From: Rhodanobacter sp. C03
GTDB taxonomy: Bacteria > Pseudomonadota > Gammaproteobacteria > Xanthomonadales > Rhodanobacteraceae
DNA length: 64,000 bases
NCBI RefSeq assembly: GCF_002001175.1
Contig: NZ_MUNT01000016.1
Span: 1 to 64,000 of the forward strand
Direction of reading: 5' to 3'
Below the pieces are notes generated by a model. The model had not been told where the DNA came from, ran no database searches, and saw only the letters and a program-made list of their open reading frames with translations. Numbering within the stretch: position 1 is the first letter of the stretch; each line of letters starts with the position of its first letter. Shown piece by piece: positions 14,768-60,836 of the stretch. A program made the translations under genes and the position numbers.

Positions 14768-14895
14768 GCGTCGATCGAGTCGGAGTGCTGTTACACACCG
14801 TTACAAACCGTTGCCGAGTCGAACTAATGCCGTTACGGGCAGCACCTAGAGTCACCCCCGTAGTCGAGATGAACTGCAGCTCGGGGGTACGTGTC

Positions 14896-15633
14896 ATGAC
14901 ATTGCTAGCAACAGACGTTCGCACCACACCGGTAGGCAAGCCTTACGCGTCCATGGCTTTGGCAGCCACCTGCAACGATCTGGGGATCGACATCGAAGCG
15001 ATTCGCAAACACGTTCCGGTCCGCCGCTGCAAACATGCCGCCGGACAGGGCATTTATCACGCCGGCCAGCCGTTCCAGGCGATCTATCTGGTACATGCCG
15101 GTTCCTACAAGACCTGCGAACTGGCTGAGGATGGGCGTGAACAGGTGACCGGATTCCGCATGCGCGGCGACCTCATCGGTGTGGAGTCGATTGGCTTGAA
15201 CACCTATTCCAGCGATGCGATCGCCTTGGAAGACAGCGAAGCCTGGGAACTGCCATATCCGGCGGTGTTGCGGGCCTGTCTGCACATGCCGGAGCTGCAA
15301 TCACGCCTGACTTCAGCATTGGCGGCGGAAATTCGTTGCGACCGTTCATGGATGCTGATGCTGGGCACGCTGGCCGCCGAACGCCGCGTTGCCGCCTTTC
15401 TGCTCGACGTGGCTGCACGCTATGCACGCCTGGGCTATAGCGCGAAGCATTTCATCTTGCGCATGAGCCGTATCGACATGGCCAGTTTCCTGGCCCTGAA
15501 GCATGAAACCGTAAGCCGGGCACTGTCGCGCCTACACGATCAAAGCTACATCGACGTGCAGCGCCGCGAAGTACGGGTGTTGGATGTCGATGGGCTGCGC
15601 TCGATGGCCGGGATAAGCACCGCGCTGAACTGA
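14896..15633 (+). CDS. Crp/Fnr-family regulator without the FNR iron-sulfur cysteines
   Basis: This is a transcription regulator of about 245 residues. It has a cyclic-nucleotide-type sensor barrel (EQVTGFRMRGDLIGVESIG is FNR-like), a long dimerisation helix and a winged helix whose recognition helix reads HETVSRALSRL. E, S and R occupy the positions that in E. coli FNR read TTGA. The three N-terminal cluster cysteines and the C122 equivalent are absent: only C26 and C45 occur in the first 50 residues. O2 sensing through a 4Fe-4S cluster is therefore unlikely. Dnr-type proteins, which sense NO through haem, also lack the cluster. The frame extends to 14785; the ATG at 14896 gives the usual family length. 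It probably acts on the boxes listed here. Confidence 0.85.
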   Translation: MTLLATDVRTTPVGKPYASMALAATCNDLGIDIEAIRKHVPVRRCKHAAGQGIYHAGQPFQAIYLVHAGSYKTCELAEDGREQVTGFRMRGDLIGVESIGLNTYSSDAIALEDSEAWELPYPAVLRACLHMPELQSRLTSALAAEIRCDRSWMLMLGTLAAERRVAAFLLDVAARYARLGYSAKHFILRMSRIDMASFLALKHETVSRALSRLHDQSYIDVQRREVRVLDVDGLRSMAGISTALN

Positions 15634-28116: not shown

Positions 28117-29505
28117 TCAGAATGCCAGCCACGTAAATAGATAGAGCGTGTTGTTGTCAGTCGCCCTTCGGCCTGCGCCATCCACGTTGTAAACAAGCCC
28201 GCTGAAGCGCGTGTAGAAGGTGTACTGGAGGCCGAAGCGGACATTGACGAAAGGCTCGGCCCAGGAGCTGGCTTGGCCATACGGGTTCCAGTTCAACTCG
28301 ACAACGCCACCGTTGGTATTGGGGCTGCCGTTGTTGCCGTACAGCGTGACGTCACGACTGCCATCGTTGGTGAACGCACCGAGCGTTGCACCCCAGGTGT
28401 TCTTGTACCAGTAGCTGCCGTTGATATTGATGGCATGCATGGTGTTGTCCAGATTGGACGACCCTCCCGCCGCATAGGTGGCATCCAGTCGCTGGTGCTC
28501 CCCCAGGTAGAGCGCATTGACCGTGAAGAGGTGATTGCCGCCGTTCAAGAACTGGTAGCTTGCATCAATACCAAGGTCACGAAACTTGTCTGTCGGACCG
28601 GAGATCGCTACGGCGTCACCAACAGCATTGGTACCAGGCAAGCCACGCCGCGCGTCCAAGGCAAAGCCACCCAGTTCGAGATTTCCTTTGGGAAGGTTCC
28701 AGGTGTAGGCAACACGTGCATAAGGCGTAATGCCGGCCAGGCGCCCATTGAAATCGCCATTGACGGTGCGCAGGAAGGACGGTGACAGCGAGCGATAGGC
28801 GCCCGCTTCGACATACAACGCACTATCGATCTGCGCATACCCGTTTATGCCCACCACTTGCTGTGCAAGGCCGCCCATCAAGATCGGCGCCGCAGGTGCA
28901 CCGGGCGCCAAGTCCGGTGCCGTATAGGGAAACTGCCAGGCAGGCGCGGTGTTGAACACATCCGTAAGGCTCGGATTGTTGTTGAGCGACACGCCCCAGA
29001 TTGTGGTGTGACTACCCGTGGTCAACGTGCGTGCATAACGCACGTCGGAGTTGTCCCATCCGAGCAGGCCGCCGTTCTGCGAATAGGTTGCCTGCGCGAG
29101 CGCACCGAGGTGGTCGGTGAGCGGACCTGCGAAAAAGAGCGATGCCTGTTGAAGCTCGGTGTTGTCATTCGTGCCAAAGCCGCTTGCAGGGGGTGCAGTC
29201 TGAGCCTTTTGCGTATGTGTGAACGACTCGATCAGCATCGTCGACAGGGGCACCTTGGCGTCATTGCCCACTTTCAGGGTGTAGCCGAGCAACTTGAACT
29301 GGCGCCCAAACGGGGTCAGCTGCGGTCCGAAGCCTCCCACATGGCAGGCCACACAGGGCTGATGCGTCTGCCTGGCAAAAGCAGGCACGGCACGGACGCG
29401 TGTCGAAAAGAAAATCAGCACCACAAGCACACAAAGACCAAACGCCAGCATGATGCGGCCGGTTCGGCCAAATGAATCACGAAGGGATGTGCTATCGACG
29501 GCCAT
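28117..29505 (-). CDS. fused monohaem cytochrome-porin, Cyc2-like
   Basis: This 462-residue protein has an N-terminal hydrophobic export segment, then PAFARQTHQPCVACH with a single c-type haem motif (C51-x2-C54-H55), then LTPFGRQFKLLGYTL, and finally about 380 residues of alternating amphipathic strands ending in the aromatic LYLFTWLAF typical of outer-membrane barrels. A haem motif directly ahead of a porin is the architecture of Cyc2, the outer-membrane cytochrome of Fe(II)-oxidising bacteria, which passes extracellular electrons inward. A HiPIP gene lies divergently, with one FNR box midway. The architecture is seen; Fe(II) oxidation is inference. Confidence 0.78.
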   Translation of the reverse strand: MAVDSTSLRDSFGRTGRIMLAFGLCVLVVLIFFSTRVRAVPAFARQTHQPCVACHVGGFGPQLTPFGRQFKLLGYTLKVGNDAKVPLSTMLIESFTHTQKAQTAPPASGFGTNDNTELQQASLFFAGPLTDHLGALAQATYSQNGGLLGWDNSDVRYARTLTTGSHTTIWGVSLNNNPSLTDVFNTAPAWQFPYTAPDLAPGAPAAPILMGGLAQQVVGINGYAQIDSALYVEAGAYRSLSPSFLRTVNGDFNGRLAGITPYARVAYTWNLPKGNLELGGFALDARRGLPGTNAVGDAVAISGPTDKFRDLGIDASYQFLNGGNHLFTVNALYLGEHQRLDATYAAGGSSNLDNTMHAININGSYWYKNTWGATLGAFTNDGSRDVTLYGNNGSPNTNGGVVELNWNPYGQASSWAEPFVNVRFGLQYTFYTRFSGLVYNVDGAGRRATDNNTLYLFTWLAF

Positions 29506-29613
29506 GTTCTTCCCCGATGCGGTTACATTTCAGTGCAATACGGTGTGTCCGGAGCGCCGAGCACGGTGTGGAAGCAGTTGCATGAAAGTCTGCCGCGACC
29601 AAAGGCGAGACGT

Positions 29614-29627
29614 TTGATCTAGATCAA
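29614..29627. promoter_or_regulatory. FNR-type box shared by cytochrome-porin and HiPIP genes
   Basis: TTGATCTAGATCAA is a perfect palindrome lying almost exactly midway between the two divergent starts (about 115 bases each). CAGACT lies 21 bases away towards the cytochrome gene and TATCGT 22 bases away towards the HiPIP gene, so one dimer site could drive both. Confidence 0.78.
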
Positions 29628-29734
29628 TCAAGTACGGGCGCAACGCAAATATCGTGGCCATCAAGCCCATCGCAAATGTGCGCCAGCCCCGTGCACGCGA
29701 GCCCCGATCAACCGAGTACTGATGGAGAACACCC

Positions 29735-30067
29735 ATGACATATCGTGAGAGAAATCTGGAGTCCCGCCGTCAATTTCTGAAGATGACGGTGGTCATGTCC
29801 GCAACGGCCGCCCTGACGAGCATCACAGGGCTTGTGCGCGCTTCCGACTTGCTGCACGTAACCGATTCCGACCCTACCGCTAAGGCGCTTGGTTATGTCG
29901 AGGATGCAAGTACAACCAAGAACACCCTGTATAAGGCCGGGAGCACTTGCGCCAACTGCCAGTTCTACTCAGGTGCAGCAGACGGCTATGGCCCCTGCCA
30001 GTTGTTCCCGGGCAAGGCCGTCAATGCGAAAGGCTGGTGCAGTTCGTATACACAGAAGAAAGCTTGA
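29735..30067 (+). CDS. high-potential iron-sulfur protein (HiPIP), Tat-exported
   Basis: This 110-residue precursor has a twin-arginine signal (SRRQFLK, then a hydrophobic stretch to about residue 36). The mature part carries the HiPIP cluster cysteines C72-x2-C75-x12-C88-x13-C102 and the conserved Tyr in ALGYVEDA. HiPIPs are soluble periplasmic one-electron carriers around +300 mV. In some Fe(II) oxidisers a HiPIP (Iro) takes electrons from the outer-membrane system. Its divergent pairing with the cytochrome-porin suggests a shared electron path. Confidence 0.92.
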   Translation: MTYRERNLESRRQFLKMTVVMSATAALTSITGLVRASDLLHVTDSDPTAKALGYVEDASTTKNTLYKAGSTCANCQFYSGAADGYGPCQLFPGKAVNAKGWCSSYTQKKA

Positions 30068-30133: not shown

Positions 30134-32506
30134 TTAACGCGCGGGGCCATGTGCCGGCCAATGCCACGCAGCCACCTCGGGCATATCTTCGCCATGCTCG
30201 CTGATATAGAGCTTGTGCCGTTCCATGATTGCCCAGTACCGCTCGGTAGCCTGTTGGACATAAGGACCGAAGCGGTGCACGCGCGTGATGGCATCCAACG
30301 CTAGCTGATAACGGTCGAGATTGTTCAATACCACCATGTCGAACGGCGTGGTGGTGGTGCCTTCGTCCTTGTAGCCGCGCACATGGATATTGTCATGATT
30401 GCGCCGACGATAAGTCAGCTTGTGAATCAGTGATGGGTAGCCGTGGAAGGCAAAAATCACCGGCCTGTCCGTGGTGAACAACGCGTCGAAATCGCGCTCC
30501 GACAGTCCGTGCGGATGTTCGGATTGCGGCTGCAGCACCATCAGATCCACGACGTTGACGACGCGGATCCGGATGTCCGGAATGAAGCCGCGCAGCAGGG
30601 TCACGGCGGCCAGGCATTCGAGCGTCGGCACATCTCCCGCGCAGGCCATCACGACATCTGGGTTGCCACCATCGTTGCTCGCCCATTCCCATACGCCGGC
30701 GCCGGCGGCGCAGTGCTTCGCGGCGTCGTCGATATCCAGCCACTGCCATTCCGGTTGCTTTCCGGCCACGATCAGGTTGATGTAGTTGCGGCTGCGCAGG
30801 CAATGATCGGCCACCGATAACAGGCAGTTGGCGTCTGGCGGCAGGTAGATGCGCACCACTTCCGACTTCTTGTTCGCAACGATATCGATGAAGCCGGGAT
30901 CCTGGTGCGAGGAGCCGTTATGGTCCTGCCGCCATACATGCGAAGTAAGTAGGTAGTTCAATGACGCTACGGGTGAACGCCACGGAATGTGGCGCGCGAC
31001 CTTCAGCCACTTGGCATGCTGGTTGAACATCGAATCGATGATGTGAATAAATGCTTCGTAGCAGGAAAAGAAACCATGGCGGCCGCTGAGCAGGTAGGCT
31101 TCCAGCCAACCCTCGCATAGATGCTCGCTCAGAACTTCCATGACACGGCCATCGGCGCTGAGATGGTCATCGACCGGATCGATGTCGGCCATCCATTCCT
31201 TGCCTGTAACTTCATAAACCGCATCCAACCGGTTGGATGCGGTTTCGTCCGGCCCGAACAGGCGGAAATTCCGGCTGTCCAGGTTGAGACGCATGACTTC
31301 GCGCAGAAAGCCGCCGAGCACACGTGTCGCCTCGGCTTCGACGGAACCCGGCGCGTTGACAGCTACCGCATGATCGCGAAAATGCGGCATCACCAACGGC
31401 TCCAGCAGTTCCCCGCCATTGGCGTGCGGATTGGAGCCCATGCGGCGGTGTCCGGTCGGTGCGATTGCGGCCAGCTCGTGGCGGAACTGGCCGGTGCCAT
31501 CGAAGAGTTCTTCCGTGCGATAGCTCTTCATCCAGGCTTCGAGCTGAGCGACGTGCTCGGGTTTGTCGAACTGCGCAATCGGCACCTGGTGCGCACGCCA
31601 GGTGCCTTCGACCGGCAGGCCGTCGACGGTCTTGGGCCCGGTCCAGCCTTTTGGAGTGCGGAAGATCAGCATCGGCCAGCGCGGGCGCTGGATCGTTCCG
31701 CTTTTCGCGCGTGCTGCCTGCTGAATGCTCTGGATCCTGGCGAGGATCTCATCGAGCGTGGCGGCAAGATCCTGATGAACGGCGGCTGGGTCGCTGCCTT
31801 CGACGAAATAGGGCTCGTAGCCATAGCCGCGGAACAGGTTCACCAATTCCTCACGGCTGATGCGCGCGAGAATGGTCGGATTCGCGATCTTGAAACCGTT
31901 CAGATGAAGAATCGGCAGCACTGCACCGTCGCGCGCGGGATTGAGAAACTTGTTCGAATGCCAGCTGGTCGCCAGCGCTCCGGTTTCCGCTTCGCCGTCG
32001 CCCACCACGCAGGCGACGATCAGATCCGGATTGTCGAACGCCGCACCGAACGCGTGCGCAAGCGAGTAGCCCAGTTCGCCACCTTCATGGATCGAGCCGG
32101 GCGTATCCGGGGAAACATGGCTGGGCACGCCGTACGGCCAGGAGAATTGGCGGAACAGTCGTCGCATACCATCGCGGTTACGCTCGATCGCCGGATAGCG
32201 TTCGGTATACGAGCCTTCCAGATAGGTCTGTGCCACCAGTCCTGGTCCACCATGGCCTGGGCCGGTGATGAAGATCATGTTGAGATCGTTTTGCTTGATC
32301 AGCCGGTTTATATGCACGTACAGCATGTTCAGGCCCGGCGTGGTGCCCCAATGACCGAGCAGGCGCGGCTTGATGTGTTCGCGCTTCAACGGCGTTTCCA
32401 GCAACGGATTGTCGCGCAGATAGATCTGGCCAACGGACAGGTAATTGGCGGCGCGCCAATAGGCGTCCATTTTCTGCAGTTGTTTGGCGGACAAGGGGTT
32501 TGGCAT
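30134..32506 (-). CDS. xfp: xylulose-5-phosphate/fructose-6-phosphate phosphoketolase
   Basis: This 790-residue thiamine-diphosphate enzyme is the full length of the family. Family motifs include [40 protein letters not shown] and the thiamine-binding GDGEAETG. It cleaves xylulose-5-P (and often fructose-6-P) with phosphate to acetyl phosphate plus glyceraldehyde-3-P (or erythrose-4-P). The acetyl phosphate can feed the acetate kinase at 24381 for ATP. An FNR box with a TAAAAG -10 lies upstream. Confidence 0.96.
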
Positions 32507-43139: not shown

Positions 43140-43442
43140 ATGAAAGAGAACAGCAATGAATTCGATGCTAGCCGTCGCACCCTGCTGAAGAGCGGCCTGA
43201 CCATGGCGGCAATCGGGGCCGTGGCAGCCACCGGTCTGCTGAAATCCGCACCGGCGCATGCACAAGCCTTGGCCCCCCAGGCCACGATGATGTACCAGTC
43301 CACACCGCACGGTAAGGATCAATGCGACAACTGCATCCACTACGTCCCGGGCAAGACGCCAAAGTCCAACGGAACCTGCAAAGTTGTTGCAGGAAGTATT
43401 AGCCCCACCGCATGGTGCGTCGCCTATGCGCGTAAAGCCTAA
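43140..43442 (+). CDS. high-potential iron-sulfur protein, Tat-exported
   Basis: This is a second HiPIP, of 100 residues. It has twin-arginine signal SRRTLLK, a hydrophobic stretch, cleavage near AHA, cluster cysteines C62-x2-C65-x14-C80-x12-C93 and the final aromatic WCVAYARKA. AGGAG precedes the ATG. Its position between the reductase gene and the nitrous oxide reductase genes suggests that it donates electrons to NosZ in place of a cytochrome c or cupredoxin. Confidence 0.92.
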   Translation: MKENSNEFDASRRTLLKSGLTMAAIGAVAATGLLKSAPAHAQALAPQATMMYQSTPHGKDQCDNCIHYVPGKTPKSNGTCKVVAGSISPTAWCVAYARKA

Positions 43443-46843: not shown

Positions 46844-48820
46844 ATGAGCGACAAGACAAACGAACAGAATCCGGAATTGAAAGCCGGCCAGTTCAGAGCG
46901 CTGACGGAAGAGGAGATTGCCTCGCTTCCTGGTTCGCCGGGGAACCTTGGCCGCCGTGGTTTCATGAAAATGGGCGCACTGGCGGGTCTTGCCGGCGTCG
47001 GTGGCACGCTGCTAGCCGGATGCGGCCGCGCGTCGACGGGCGAACAGCCCGTGTCGAGTAAGGCCCCCGCCCCTGCAGCCACGGGCATGCCGGAGGATCA
47101 CGTTGCGCCGGGCAAACTGGACGAATACTACGGTTTCTGGAGCGGCGGCCAGTCCGGCGAAATGCGTATTCTGGGCCTGCCGTCGATGCGTGAACTGATG
47201 CGCATCCCGGTGTTTAACACCGACTTCGCCATCGGCTGGGGCATCACCAACGAGAGCAAGCGGGTATTAGGCGAGAACTTTCCCCGAGGTGGTGACCTTC
47301 ATCATCCGCATATGAGTCAGACGAACGGTCATTACGACGGGCGCTACCTGTTCATGAACGACAAAACGGGCTGTCGTATCGCACGCATCCGCTGTGATGT
47401 GATGCGCACCGACAAGATCACCAGCATTCCCAATGTAGCGGACGTCCACGGCCTGCGCGTGCAGCGTGAGCCACGCACCGGTTACGTGTTCGCCAACTCG
47501 GAATTCAGAGTTCCCAGTCCCAACGACGGCCGTGACCTGGACGATCCGAAGAAATACCAGTGCGTTTTCACGGCGGTGAACGGCGACACCATGGAAGTGG
47601 CATGGCAGGTCATCGTCGATGGGAACCTGGACAATACCGATTGCGATTACGACGGCAAATACGTGGCCTCGACCTGCTACAACAGCGAGGGGGCCGTGGA
47701 TCTTGCAGGCATGATGCAGGGCGAGCGCGACTGGGCCGTCGTGTTCAACATCAAGCGCATAGAGGCGGCAGTCAAGGCCGGCAAATTCAAGACCATCGGC
47801 ACGTCCAAGGTGCCAGTGGTGGACGGACGCCATGGTTCGGAACTGACCATGTACATCCCGGTCCCGAAGAACCCGCACGGCCTCAATTCCAGCCCGGACG
47901 GCAAGTATTTCGCTGCCGCCGGCAAGTTGTCGCCGACGGTCACCCTGATGGCGTGGAGCAAGGTCGACGACTACTTTGCCGGCAAGCTCAAAGATCCGCG
48001 TGATGCTGTGGTGGCCGAGCCACAACTGGGCCTAGGGCCATTGCATACGGCTTACGACGGTCGTGGCAATGCGTACACCACGCTGTTCATCGATAGCCAG
48101 ATCGTAAAATGGAACATCCAGGACGCGATCGACGCCTATGCGGGCAAGAAGGTCAACTACCTGCGCCAGAAGCTCGATGTCGCCTACCAGCCTGGCCACA
48201 ACCACACGTCGCTGGGCGAAACGCGCGATGCGGATGGCAAGTGGCTGGTATCGCTGAACAAGTTCTCGAAGGATCGTTTCCTGGCGGTCGGCCCACTGCA
48301 TCCGGACAACGATCAATTGATCGACATTTCCGGCGACCAGATGGTGCTGGTGGCGGATGCACCGGTCTTCTCGGAGCCCCATGATGCCGTGATCATTCCG
48401 AGCCGACTCATGGCGGGCAAGATCAAGCGCATTTGGGATCGCAAGGACCCGTTCTTTGCCGAAACCGTCGCCCAGGCGACGAAGCACGGCATCGTTTTGG
48501 AGAAGGACAGCAAGGTCATCCGCGAGGGCAAGAAGGTCTTTGTCTACATGACCAGCTCTGCGCCGACGTTCGGTCTGAACAGCTTCACGGTGAAGAAAGG
48601 CGACGAAGTGACTGTGGTGGACACAAACATCGACGACATCGAGGATCTGACCCACGGATTCTGTCTCAGCAACTATGGCATCAACATGGAGATCAGCCCG
48701 CAGGAGACTTCGTCCGTCACCTTCATCGCTGACAAGCCAGGAGTCTACTGGTACTACTGCACGTTCTTCTGCCATGCGCTGCACTTGGAGATGAGAGGCC
48801 GGATGTTGGTGGAAGCGTGA
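46844..48820 (+). CDS. nosZ: nitrous oxide reductase, clade I type
   Basis: This 658-residue copper enzyme has Tat signal RRGFMK followed by a hydrophobic segment, the CuZ ligand motif [10 protein letters not shown] (about 149-156) and other His ligands, and a C-terminal cupredoxin domain whose CuA site reads [16 protein letters not shown]. It reduces N2O to N2 in the periplasm. Tat export plus adjacent nosR and nosX place it in clade I. GAGGAG precedes the ATG. Confidence 0.97.
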
Positions 48821-58882: not shown

Positions 58883-58942
58883 GGCAACTGCTACCTGCAC
58901 GCGCCATGATGCGGTCTGTTCGATTTCCCAAGGTGCGTGCGT

Positions 58943-59941
58943 ATGCAACTGGTCTGTCCCGCAGGCAATTTGCCGGCATTGCAGGCGGCAATTGATGCCG
59001 GTGCGGATGCGGTCTACGCGGGCTTTCGCGATCAGACCAACGCGCGTGCCTTCCCTGGTCTCAATTTTAGTGACGAAGAGCTGAGTGCAGGGATCGACTA
59101 CGCGCATGCGCGTAGTCGCAAGGTCTATCTGGCGCTCAACACCTATCCAGATAGCGTACGGCTGGCGCACTGGCAGGCGGCTGTGGACAAGGCGGCGGAA
59201 TTTGGTTGCGATGCGATCATTGCGGCTGAGATGGCGGTGCTCGACTACGCCACACGTACCCATCCAGGGCTGGCGCGACATCTATCGGTGCAGGGTTCGG
59301 CTACCACTGCGCCCGCGTTGCACTACATGTACGAGCGCTTTGGCATCAGTCGTGCCGTATTGCCACGGGTACTTTCTATCCAGCAGGTGGAGCGACTGTG
59401 CATGAATTCGCCGGTGCCTTTGGAAGTCTTCGGATTCGGCAGTCTATGCATCATGGTTGAGGGGCGCTGTCAGCTGTCGAGCTATGTCACTGGTGCTTCG
59501 CCGAACCGTCACGGCGTGTGTTCGCCGGCCAGCTTTGTACGCTGGGAGGAGGAGCAAGACGGCCGACGCAGTGTCCGCCTGAACAAGGTGCTGATTGACC
59601 GATTTGAGCCCGCGGAGCCAGCGGGCTACCCCACAGTGTGCAAAGGACGCTTTGACGTCGGCGGTGAGGTATTTCACGCACTTGAGGAGCCGACCAGTCT
59701 CAATACCTTGGAGTTGCTTCCTCGGCTCGCTCAGGCAGGGGTGACGGCTCTGAAGATCGAGGGCCGCCAACGCGGTGTGGCCTACGTGAGTTCGGTCACT
59801 CGCACTTGGCGTGATGCACTGGATCGTTACCACAGATCACCGCAGGACTGGCAGCTGCAAGCGGACTGGCAACGCTCGCTGTCAGCACATGCCGAGGGTC
59901 ACCAGACCACGCTCGGCCCCTATCACCGTCATTGGCACTGA
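58943..59941 (+). CDS. ubiU: UbiU, O2-independent ubiquinone hydroxylation, U32 family
   Basis: This 332-residue U32-fold protein has 4Fe-4S cysteines C169, C176, C193 and about C233, matching the E. coli UbiU spacing. With UbiV it hydroxylates the ubiquinone precursor ring without O2, using prephenate as oxygen donor. The start at 58943 (rather than GTG 58937) reproduces E. coli numbering. ubiV follows by 4 bases. Confidence 0.93.
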
Positions 59942-59945
59942 ACCG

Positions 59946-60836
59946 ATGAATACGATGAAACTAAGCTTGGGACCATTACAGTATTTTTGGCCCCGCGAGC
60001 GCACTTTGGCCTTTTACCGTGAGGCAGCGCAATGGCCCATTGATATCATCTATCTCGGTGAGACCGTATGTAGCAAACGGCGAGAGATGAGCACTGGGGG
60101 CTGGATCGCACTGGCTGCGGAACTTAGCGAGAGCGGTAAGCAAGTCGTGTTGTCATCATTGGCACTGATCGAAGCCGAATCTGAACTCGGCGCACTAAAA
60201 CGGTTGGTCAGTGACGGTAACTGCTGGATCGAGGCGAACGATCTCTCCGCAGTGCAGTTGTGCCGCGAGCGTGGCGTGCCCTTCGTTGCCGGTCCATCGC
60301 TCAATGTCTACAACCATCGAGCACTCGCATTACTGATGGAAGATGGTCTGCATCGCTGGGTTCCTGGCGTGGAGCAGGGCGAAGTGCTGTTGCGTGAGCT
60401 TCGCGCGGCGATGCTCGCTGAGAACCTCACGATGCCGGAACTTGAGGTGATAGCGTTTGGTCGACTGCCACTGGCTTACTCAGCGCGCTGCTTCACCGCG
60501 CGTGCCCTAGATGTTGGCAAAGATCAATGCGATTTTCGTTGTATTGAATACCCCGATGGCATGCCGCTTGCCACTCGCGAGGGTAGACCGTTCCTACGCA
60601 TCAACGGCATCCAGATCCAGGGCGAGGAAGTCACCGATCTCGGTCCCCAGTTGCCTGCACTTCGCGAACTTGGCGTCGACGTGCTTCGTTTATATCCGCA
60701 AGTTAGTGGCATGGCCGATGTCGTGGCGCACTTTCACCTTGCGCGTCGCTCGCCAGTGGCGCCGCCGCGGATCGGTATACGCAACGGCTACTGGCACGGC
60801 GAGCCGGGAATGCAGATGCTCCACACCGCTGTCTGA
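59946..60836 (+). CDS. ubiV: UbiV, partner of UbiU
   Basis: This 296-residue U32-fold protein has cluster cysteines in [10 protein letters not shown] and in [19 protein letters not shown], matching the spacing of E. coli C39/C180/C193/C197. A start at 59955 (the next Met) would give that numbering almost exactly. It forms the UbiUV complex. No ubiT (SCP2 domain) gene is in the window. Confidence 0.92.

Follow-up and report, generated by a model that had tools for sequence, protein, structure and literature searches.

The DNA analysed here is a 64-kb stretch from the soil bacterium Rhodanobacter sp. C03 (contig NZ_MUNT01000016.1, positions 1 to 64,000 of the forward strand, referred to below as the window); the whole contig, G000:C20, measures 105 kb. 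It contains two divergently oriented genes that are candidates for electron transfer across the outer membrane. The first, on the reverse strand at positions 28117 to 29505, is a cyc2-like gene, recognised by motif and homology, that encodes a predicted outer-membrane fusion of a monohaem cytochrome c and a beta-barrel. The second, on the forward strand at 29735 to 30067, encodes a HiPIP, a small periplasmic [4Fe-4S] protein of 110 residues. The 229-bp spacer between them holds an FNR-type box, TTGATCTAGATCAA, at 29614 to 29627, a perfect palindrome common to both genes that was located by motif scan and by comparison with orthologous loci. An earlier note, made from the letters of the window alone, had proposed that a Cyc2-like cytochrome-porin and a HiPIP share this box and had suggested uptake of extracellular electrons, perhaps from Fe(II), coupled to N2O reduction under anoxia.

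The Cyc2-like cytochrome and its HiPIP neighbour

The published criteria for Cyc2 are a single CXXCH, the signature AXPXFAR[Q/K][T/Y], a PXL motif four residues past the CXXCH and a length of at least 365 residues (PMC8406198). A motif scan located the sole CXXCH of the 462-residue cyc2-like product at residue 51, preceded by the signature in the form AVPAFARQT (residues 39-47) and followed by PQL at residues 61-63, so spaced that five residues separate His55 from Pro61, one more than in the published PXL spacing. The protein has three cysteines in all and ends in phenylalanine.

The Cyc2 chosen as reference was that of locus L117, a rusticyanin/cox locus picked via a rusticyanin search, with the gene order cyc2-cup-coxB-coxA-coxC-ctaA-ctaB-rus, in which the names other than rusticyanin were assigned by eye. 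The other loci with rusticyanin matches, L114-L116 and L118-L120, had no open reading frame with the Cyc2 motif. The window protein was 31% identical to the L117 Cyc2 over residues 20-460 (218 bits), and a profile of 79 relatives matched it with an E value of 2.8e-76 over 413 columns at 36% identity, reaching the last residue. A remote profile match was also obtained to an alignment of ten Cyc2s from loci read as Zetaproteobacteria, here given the interpretive label zeta-type (E 5e-23, 321 columns, 18% identity). Because of the signature, the full-length match to L117 and the remote match to the zeta-type proteins, the product is assigned by homology to the Cyc2 family, and its closest kin in the reference set used is the rusticyanin-locus type; this full-length kinship suggests that it falls in Cluster 2. 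The membership of the Cyc2 family that the earlier note proposed is thus well supported by signature and end-to-end homology.

No Pfam or NCBIfam family was matched by the protein, nor any Pfam family by four of its homologues, and its best hits in the PDB were not significant (E 0.052 and 0.019). The predicted barrel is consistent with the amphipathic stretches and the terminal Phe. About 16 strands were counted by eye only. Hydrophobic-moment analysis gave 12 peaks for the single sequence but 22 for the family average, so that the strand number disagrees between counts.

The nearest relatives by the cyc2-like gene were those of Rhodanobacter sp. B05 (94%) and B04 (91%). More distant relatives at 32-33% identity, annotated as hypothetical protein, are plasmid-borne in Acidithiobacillus ferrooxidans (CP084173.1) and Acidiphilium (NC_009469.1 and NC_015179.1). 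The homologue of Rudaea cellulosilytica (L060/L183) is split over two frames that match residues 20-135 and 137-461 of the query, either as a broken copy or through a sequencing error.

The product of the HiPIP gene scored 86.7 bits against PF01355 (cut-off 22, E 1.3e-24), has all four cluster cysteines (residues 72, 75, 88 and 102) and carries a Tat-type export signal, RRQFL. The position and divergent orientation claimed for it were confirmed.

A probable FNR-type promoter shared by the pair and conserved in the branch

From the centre of the box it is 115.5 bp to the start codon of cyc2 and 114.5 bp to that of HiPIP, both ATG, in agreement with the earlier claim of one perfect palindrome about 115 bp from both starts. 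On the HiPIP side, a -10-like hexamer, TATCGT, occupies 29650 to 29655 on the forward strand at +30 from the box centre, which places the box at about -41.5. On the cyc2 side, a weaker hexamer, CAGACT, is found at 29587 to 29592 on the reverse strand at +29.

The distribution of the box was followed in a tree of homologues. Across the 147 genomes of the family, a search gave 93 matching places in 81 genomes. Of the 92 that lie outside the window, 61 were retrieved, on 60 stretches, as input for the tree, and the best 30 of the 93 places were also viewed with 1.5-kb flanks. A further search contributed 33 stretches from 89 matching genomes. The short broken copies L060 and L183 were dropped beforehand, and 159 of 171 rows were left after removal of 12 exact duplicates. 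Clade lists were read off the tree by hand and the clade counts cover 142 of the 159 rows; the 17 rows outside the named groups are uncounted, and three of the 14 scanned among them were positive for the box (L065, L138 and L147). The clade of the window, clade A, comprises 46 rows from the Rhodanobacteraceae (Rhodanobacter and Dyella), Lysobacter, a few other bacteria and metagenome-assembled genomes, and adjoins a Thiomonas clade.

The region from 90 to 420 nt upstream of the haem codon was scanned for the consensus TTGAYNNNNRTCAA. It was present in 36 of 45 clade A loci (L178 has no upstream sequence) and, with one mismatch, in three more, as well as in 11 of 12 loci of the Thiomonas clade, 3/4 A-out, 9/13 B1 and 4/18 alpha loci. 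The same region was devoid of the consensus in all 18 B2, 19 beta, 10 zeta-type and 2 rus-type loci, and shuffled upstream regions carried it in at most 0.5% of cases. Predicted low-oxygen control is, on this evidence, a trait of the Cyc2 branch and not of the window alone.

Promoter geometry was examined in 59 boxed loci (clade A, 36; Thiomonas, 11; A-out, 3; B1, 9). On the cyc2 side, TANNNT occurred at +29 to +31 from the box centre in 23 of them, the window itself being among those without it; these 23 were nearly all of the 25 occurrences found over 16 offsets, and the position fits an activator site centred at -41.5. Because the loci share ancestry, probabilities computed from these counts are overstated. 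On the HiPIP side, TANNNT was found at +29 or +30 in all six HiPIP-linked loci with a perfect spacer box, compared with a single instance at +29 to +31 among the 53 other boxed loci. In these six spacers (the window and L034-L038) the distances from the box centre to HiPIP/cyc2 were 114/115, 114/115, 116/115, 64/64, 65/91 and 73/84 bp.

A HiPIP gene was encoded within 3 kb of cyc2 in 10 of the 46 clade A loci, a lower bound since ten clade A flanks are shorter than 3 kb, and in every one of these it was divergent. All ten fell within one supported set of 14 rows (13 in a second tree). In the outlier L063, the HiPIP gene lies directly 3' of cyc2 on the same strand. Because promoter geometry was found on both sides of the box and HiPIP is linked in two gene arrangements, it is well supported by sequence comparison that cyc2 and HiPIP share one probable low-oxygen promoter. 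The distance of the box from the -10-like hexamers on either side is that expected of a class II activator site, and the combination of a consensus box at the activator position with such hexamers is that of a putative FNR regulon member.

Several pairs may occur in one genome. Two Dyella genomes carry three (G104: L038, L040 and L041) and two (G066: L036 and L039) cyc2-HiPIP pairs, which suggests duplication of the entire pair.

The gene directly 3' of cyc2 differed between branches. By a rough rule for gene calling, a c-type cytochrome gene occupied this position in 2/46 clade A and 0/12 Thiomonas-clade loci, compared with 6/13 B1 loci (two haems) and 13/18 B2 and 9/19 beta loci (mostly one haem). 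In the six B1 loci (L067, L068, L070, L072, L141 and L232) the arrangement of a two-haem cytochrome gene directly 3' of cyc2 is like that of cyc2-cyc1. Since a c-type gene is common beside other branches and rare in clade A, the HiPIP, where present, may most simply be regarded as standing in for it.

The putative low-oxygen neighbourhood and candidate electron acceptors

The surroundings of the pair are an FNR-box island. The motif TTGATNNNNATCAA, allowing one mismatch, occurred 15 times in the window, whereas 100 shuffles averaged 1.73 occurrences and never exceeded 5. The degenerate TTGAYNNNNRTCAA likewise occurred 15 times in the window, five times in the next 40 kb of the contig (L260-L261) and once in eight chosen 20-kb stretches (160 kb in all) elsewhere in the genome. 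All 15 boxes in the window sit between -6 and 202 bp from gene starts in the gene list drawn up. The genes concerned include usp genes, a Crp-type regulator, a phaB-like gene, pta-ackA, cyc2/HiPIP, xfp/BON, a phosphorylase, ADH and a TrxR-like gene before the nos cluster.

Next to the HiPIP gene, on the reverse strand at 30134 to 32506, is a phosphoketolase-like gene that we take to be xfp. It is preceded by boxes at 88 and 168 bp, one of them identical to the cyc2/HiPIP box, and is a recurrent neighbour of the pair, a phosphoketolase being found nearby in five of the nine divergently HiPIP-linked loci tested. On the other side of the pair, the reverse strand between 24381 and 27938 carries ackA (acetate kinase), a gene presumed to be pta-like and universal-stress (Usp) genes; acetate kinase and Usp were identified by family matches, and the pta-like gene has an FNR-type box 66 bp upstream.

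The remainder of the contig encodes nirK, ccoN and an FNR. The ccoN match is preceded at about 70 bp by a 14-mer identical to the cyc2/HiPIP box. The FNR, located at 84.9 kb of the contig (L257) beside a hemN-like gene identified by eye, has a CX2CX5C motif, likewise read by eye, and scored 184 bits against the FNR profile, under the E. coli-type cut-off of 228. A second Crp/Fnr-type regulator, at 14785 to 15633, aligns with this profile from position 53 onwards only and, judged by eye, is without the usual cysteine pattern near the N-terminus that the FNR at 84.9 kb has. Two adjacent open reading frames at 58937 to 60836, the first with an FNR-type box 62 bp upstream, are presumably a UbiU/UbiV pair of the U32-peptidase type for oxygen-independent ubiquinone synthesis.

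The description of the pair as next to a nos operon with its own HiPIP was loose. Although a nos cluster is present, about a dozen genes separate the HiPIP gene from nosZ (46844-48820), and the HiPIP on the nos side (43281-43430) is a weak match, at 25.2 bits against the cut-off of 22.

Electron acceptors were surveyed in seven pair-bearing genomes, G000 (the window strain), G093, G116, G066, G125, G104 and G142 (78% complete); Dyella jiangningensis (L158), also pair-bearing, lies outside this set. Above their cut-offs, CcoN was found in three, NarG in one and NirK in four of the seven genomes. At a threshold of E 1e-50, NosZ was found only in G000, and in 14 of the 147 genomes of the family; the two nearest relatives, whose Cyc2 is 94% and 91% identical, gave no NosZ match. 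PF00115 also picked up long-frame matches in G000, G104 and G093, which may, we assume, be NO reductases. No one of CcoN, NarG, NirK and NosZ occurs in all seven genomes, so that within the reach of these four markers a shared anaerobic acceptor was rejected, and the pair is most readily viewed as an electron gate, one that would feed or drain the low-oxygen system of the particular strain.

Direction of electron flow and role of the pair

The interpretation that we favour, tentatively and with the balance of probability lying slightly against so specific a reading, is that the pair is a low-oxygen-switched electron-transfer module that takes electrons inward across the outer membrane, most likely from Fe(II). 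At low oxygen, FNR would activate both genes. The cytochrome, with its single haem at the periplasmic mouth of the predicted barrel, would accept electrons from a soluble outside reductant, most likely Fe(II). The HiPIP, replacing the c-type cytochrome encoded beside several other Cyc2 branches, would then pass them to the high-potential low-oxygen acceptor of the strain, in this case cbb3 oxidase, NirK or NosZ. Fe(II) uptake is plausible from family kinship, the three Cyc2s with biochemical evidence being Fe(II) oxidisers (PMC8406198).

Several observations weigh against this interpretation, 1) no HiPIP was found within 3 kb in 36 of the 46 clade A loci (ten of the 46 having shorter flanks), so that a HiPIP is not obligatory at the locus, 2) the spacers of the Dyella paralogues L039 and L040 have no box and those of L041 and L158 have one with a mismatch, 3) the box consensus also fits regulators of the DNR, NNR and FixK types, 4) a c-type neighbour is not universal in the other branches (alpha, 4/18; zeta-type, 0/10 with flanks of 0.5-3 kb; rus-type, 1/2), 5) the comparative counts take related loci as independent, 6) searches of the near-complete genomes G066 and G104 gave nothing above cut-off for CcoN, NarG and NirK, and no NosZ (none was aimed at NapA, NirS or Nor by themselves), 7) the function of Cyc2s distant from the verified ones has been called uncertain (PMC8406198) and 8) Cyc2, Cyc1, CycA and rusticyanin of At. 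ferrooxidans have been assigned to a chain that reduces Fe(III) anaerobically, with outward flow (PMC10937671).

The genomes G066 and G104 and the Acidithiobacillus chain bear directly on the possibility that the pair drains low-oxygen reductant to outside Fe(III) or a mediator and thereby aids the adjacent phosphoketolase/acetate kinase survival metabolism. Such outward flow is a serious rival because of the low-oxygen promoter and the fermentative neighbours, the pair sharing its FNR-box island with ackA, pta-like, xfp-like and usp genes, and the pair is present in G066 and G104, where none of the four respiratory markers was found. These two genomes do, however, still possess haem-copper oxidases, the biochemically supported Cyc2s run in the oxidising direction, and the potentials of HiPIPs, +50 to +633 mV (PMC10879576), are high for an outside acceptor at neutral pH. 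Outward flow is judged rather unlikely, inward flow being only mildly favoured over it.

A different donor or role for the cytochrome-porin, involving copper, sulfur species, nitric oxide or haem stress and with Fe(II) incidental, would be in keeping with the occurrence of homologues in many bacteria not known as iron oxidisers (PMC5566968) and with the coexistence of homologues with differing partners within one bacterial family. The signature and the full-length homology to the Cyc2 of a rusticyanin/cox locus argue against this, and we consider it improbable.

The proposal of the earlier note, that the pair feeds N2O reduction specifically, has in its favour the presence of nosZ on the same contig, some 17 kb away and among FNR-type boxes. 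As a conserved trait this coupling is rejected, since only one of the seven pair-bearing genomes tested has NosZ; with 14 of 147 family genomes positive and no match in the two nearest relatives, the specific proposal is very improbable. N2O coupling in the window strain itself is possible, since nosZ, nirK and ccoN share the contig. That the box is there by chance or for one gene only, cyc2 and HiPIP being unrelated neighbours, is barely credible: the box does accompany cyc2 in loci lacking HiPIP and four of the ten divergent HiPIP loci lack a perfect spacer box, but the linkage of HiPIP in two arrangements and the HiPIP-side hexamer in 6/6 perfect-box loci compared with 1/53 others speak against it.

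The comparison raises the possibility, which we regard as rather doubtful, of a large low-oxygen branch of Cyc2 in the Rhodanobacteraceae, Lysobacter, Thiomonas and their kin. This branch would have a class II FNR promoter and would lack the c-type partner gene of several other branches; within it, HiPIP would have been recruited as a dedicated periplasmic carrier through use of the opposite side of that FNR box. Its members would serve persistence under anoxia, whether through Fe(II) uptake or through disposal of electrons, and not aerobic lithotrophy on iron.

The window combines features of several known systems. With the Cluster 2 Cyc2s of rusticyanin operons (Acidithiobacillus/Acidihalobacter) it shares the signature, single haem, length and homology through the barrel to the C-terminus; it differs in having a HiPIP instead of cup, cox and rusticyanin neighbours, and an FNR-type box, which L117 does not have. 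The Cluster 1 Cyc2s of neutrophilic iron oxidisers (Mariprofundus type) have in common with it the N-terminal signature, the haem site and a remote profile match, but their barrel is poorly alignable (18%, 321 columns) and the zeta-type loci are unboxed (0/10). A Cyc2 homologue has been described in the Rhodanobacter of culture KS, and a cyc2 gene clustered with a HiPIP gene in Bradyrhizobium, where the cluster, unlike the window, adds three c-type cytochromes and where the accessible text describes no shared FNR promoter (PMC5566968). PioC of Rhodopseudomonas, which follows PioAB, is likewise a HiPIP, one that carries electrons in the periplasm for an Fe(II) oxidase of the outer membrane, although that oxidase is a decahaem cytochrome with a separate porin (PMC10654088, PMC10879576). 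In gene content only, the neighbourhood is similar to loci for survival at low oxygen, among them lxa of Burkholderia cenocepacia, which has universal stress and BON-domain proteins; the accessible descriptions of lxa list a 'putative cytochrome c' and name neither Cyc2 nor HiPIP (PMC6127331, PMC9104464).

Cyc2-like genes in Thiomonas (PMC5566968) and Cyc2 homologues in the Rhodanobacteraceae (PMC10654088) have already been published. A literature search, mostly without subscription papers, found no report of a Cyc2 branch with a conserved FNR-type promoter, nor of a HiPIP sharing one; in the accessible parts of the Cyc2 papers inspected, 'FNR' stood for ferredoxin-NADP oxidoreductase, for a word in a reference title or for the E. 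coli ccm regulator.

The role of the Cyc2 homologues of many bacteria not known to oxidise iron has been called open (PMC5566968, PMC8406198). The conserved low-oxygen promoter provides a concrete prediction for one large Cyc2 branch, namely that it is deployed when oxygen is scarce, and cyc2-HiPIP is a two-gene module small enough for deletion and in vitro rebuilding. Citing another study, one paper describes the Rhodanobacter of culture KS, which reduces nitrate, as a mixotrophic Fe(II) oxidiser (PMC12622760); in that culture such a module would bear on both iron and nitrogen cycling.

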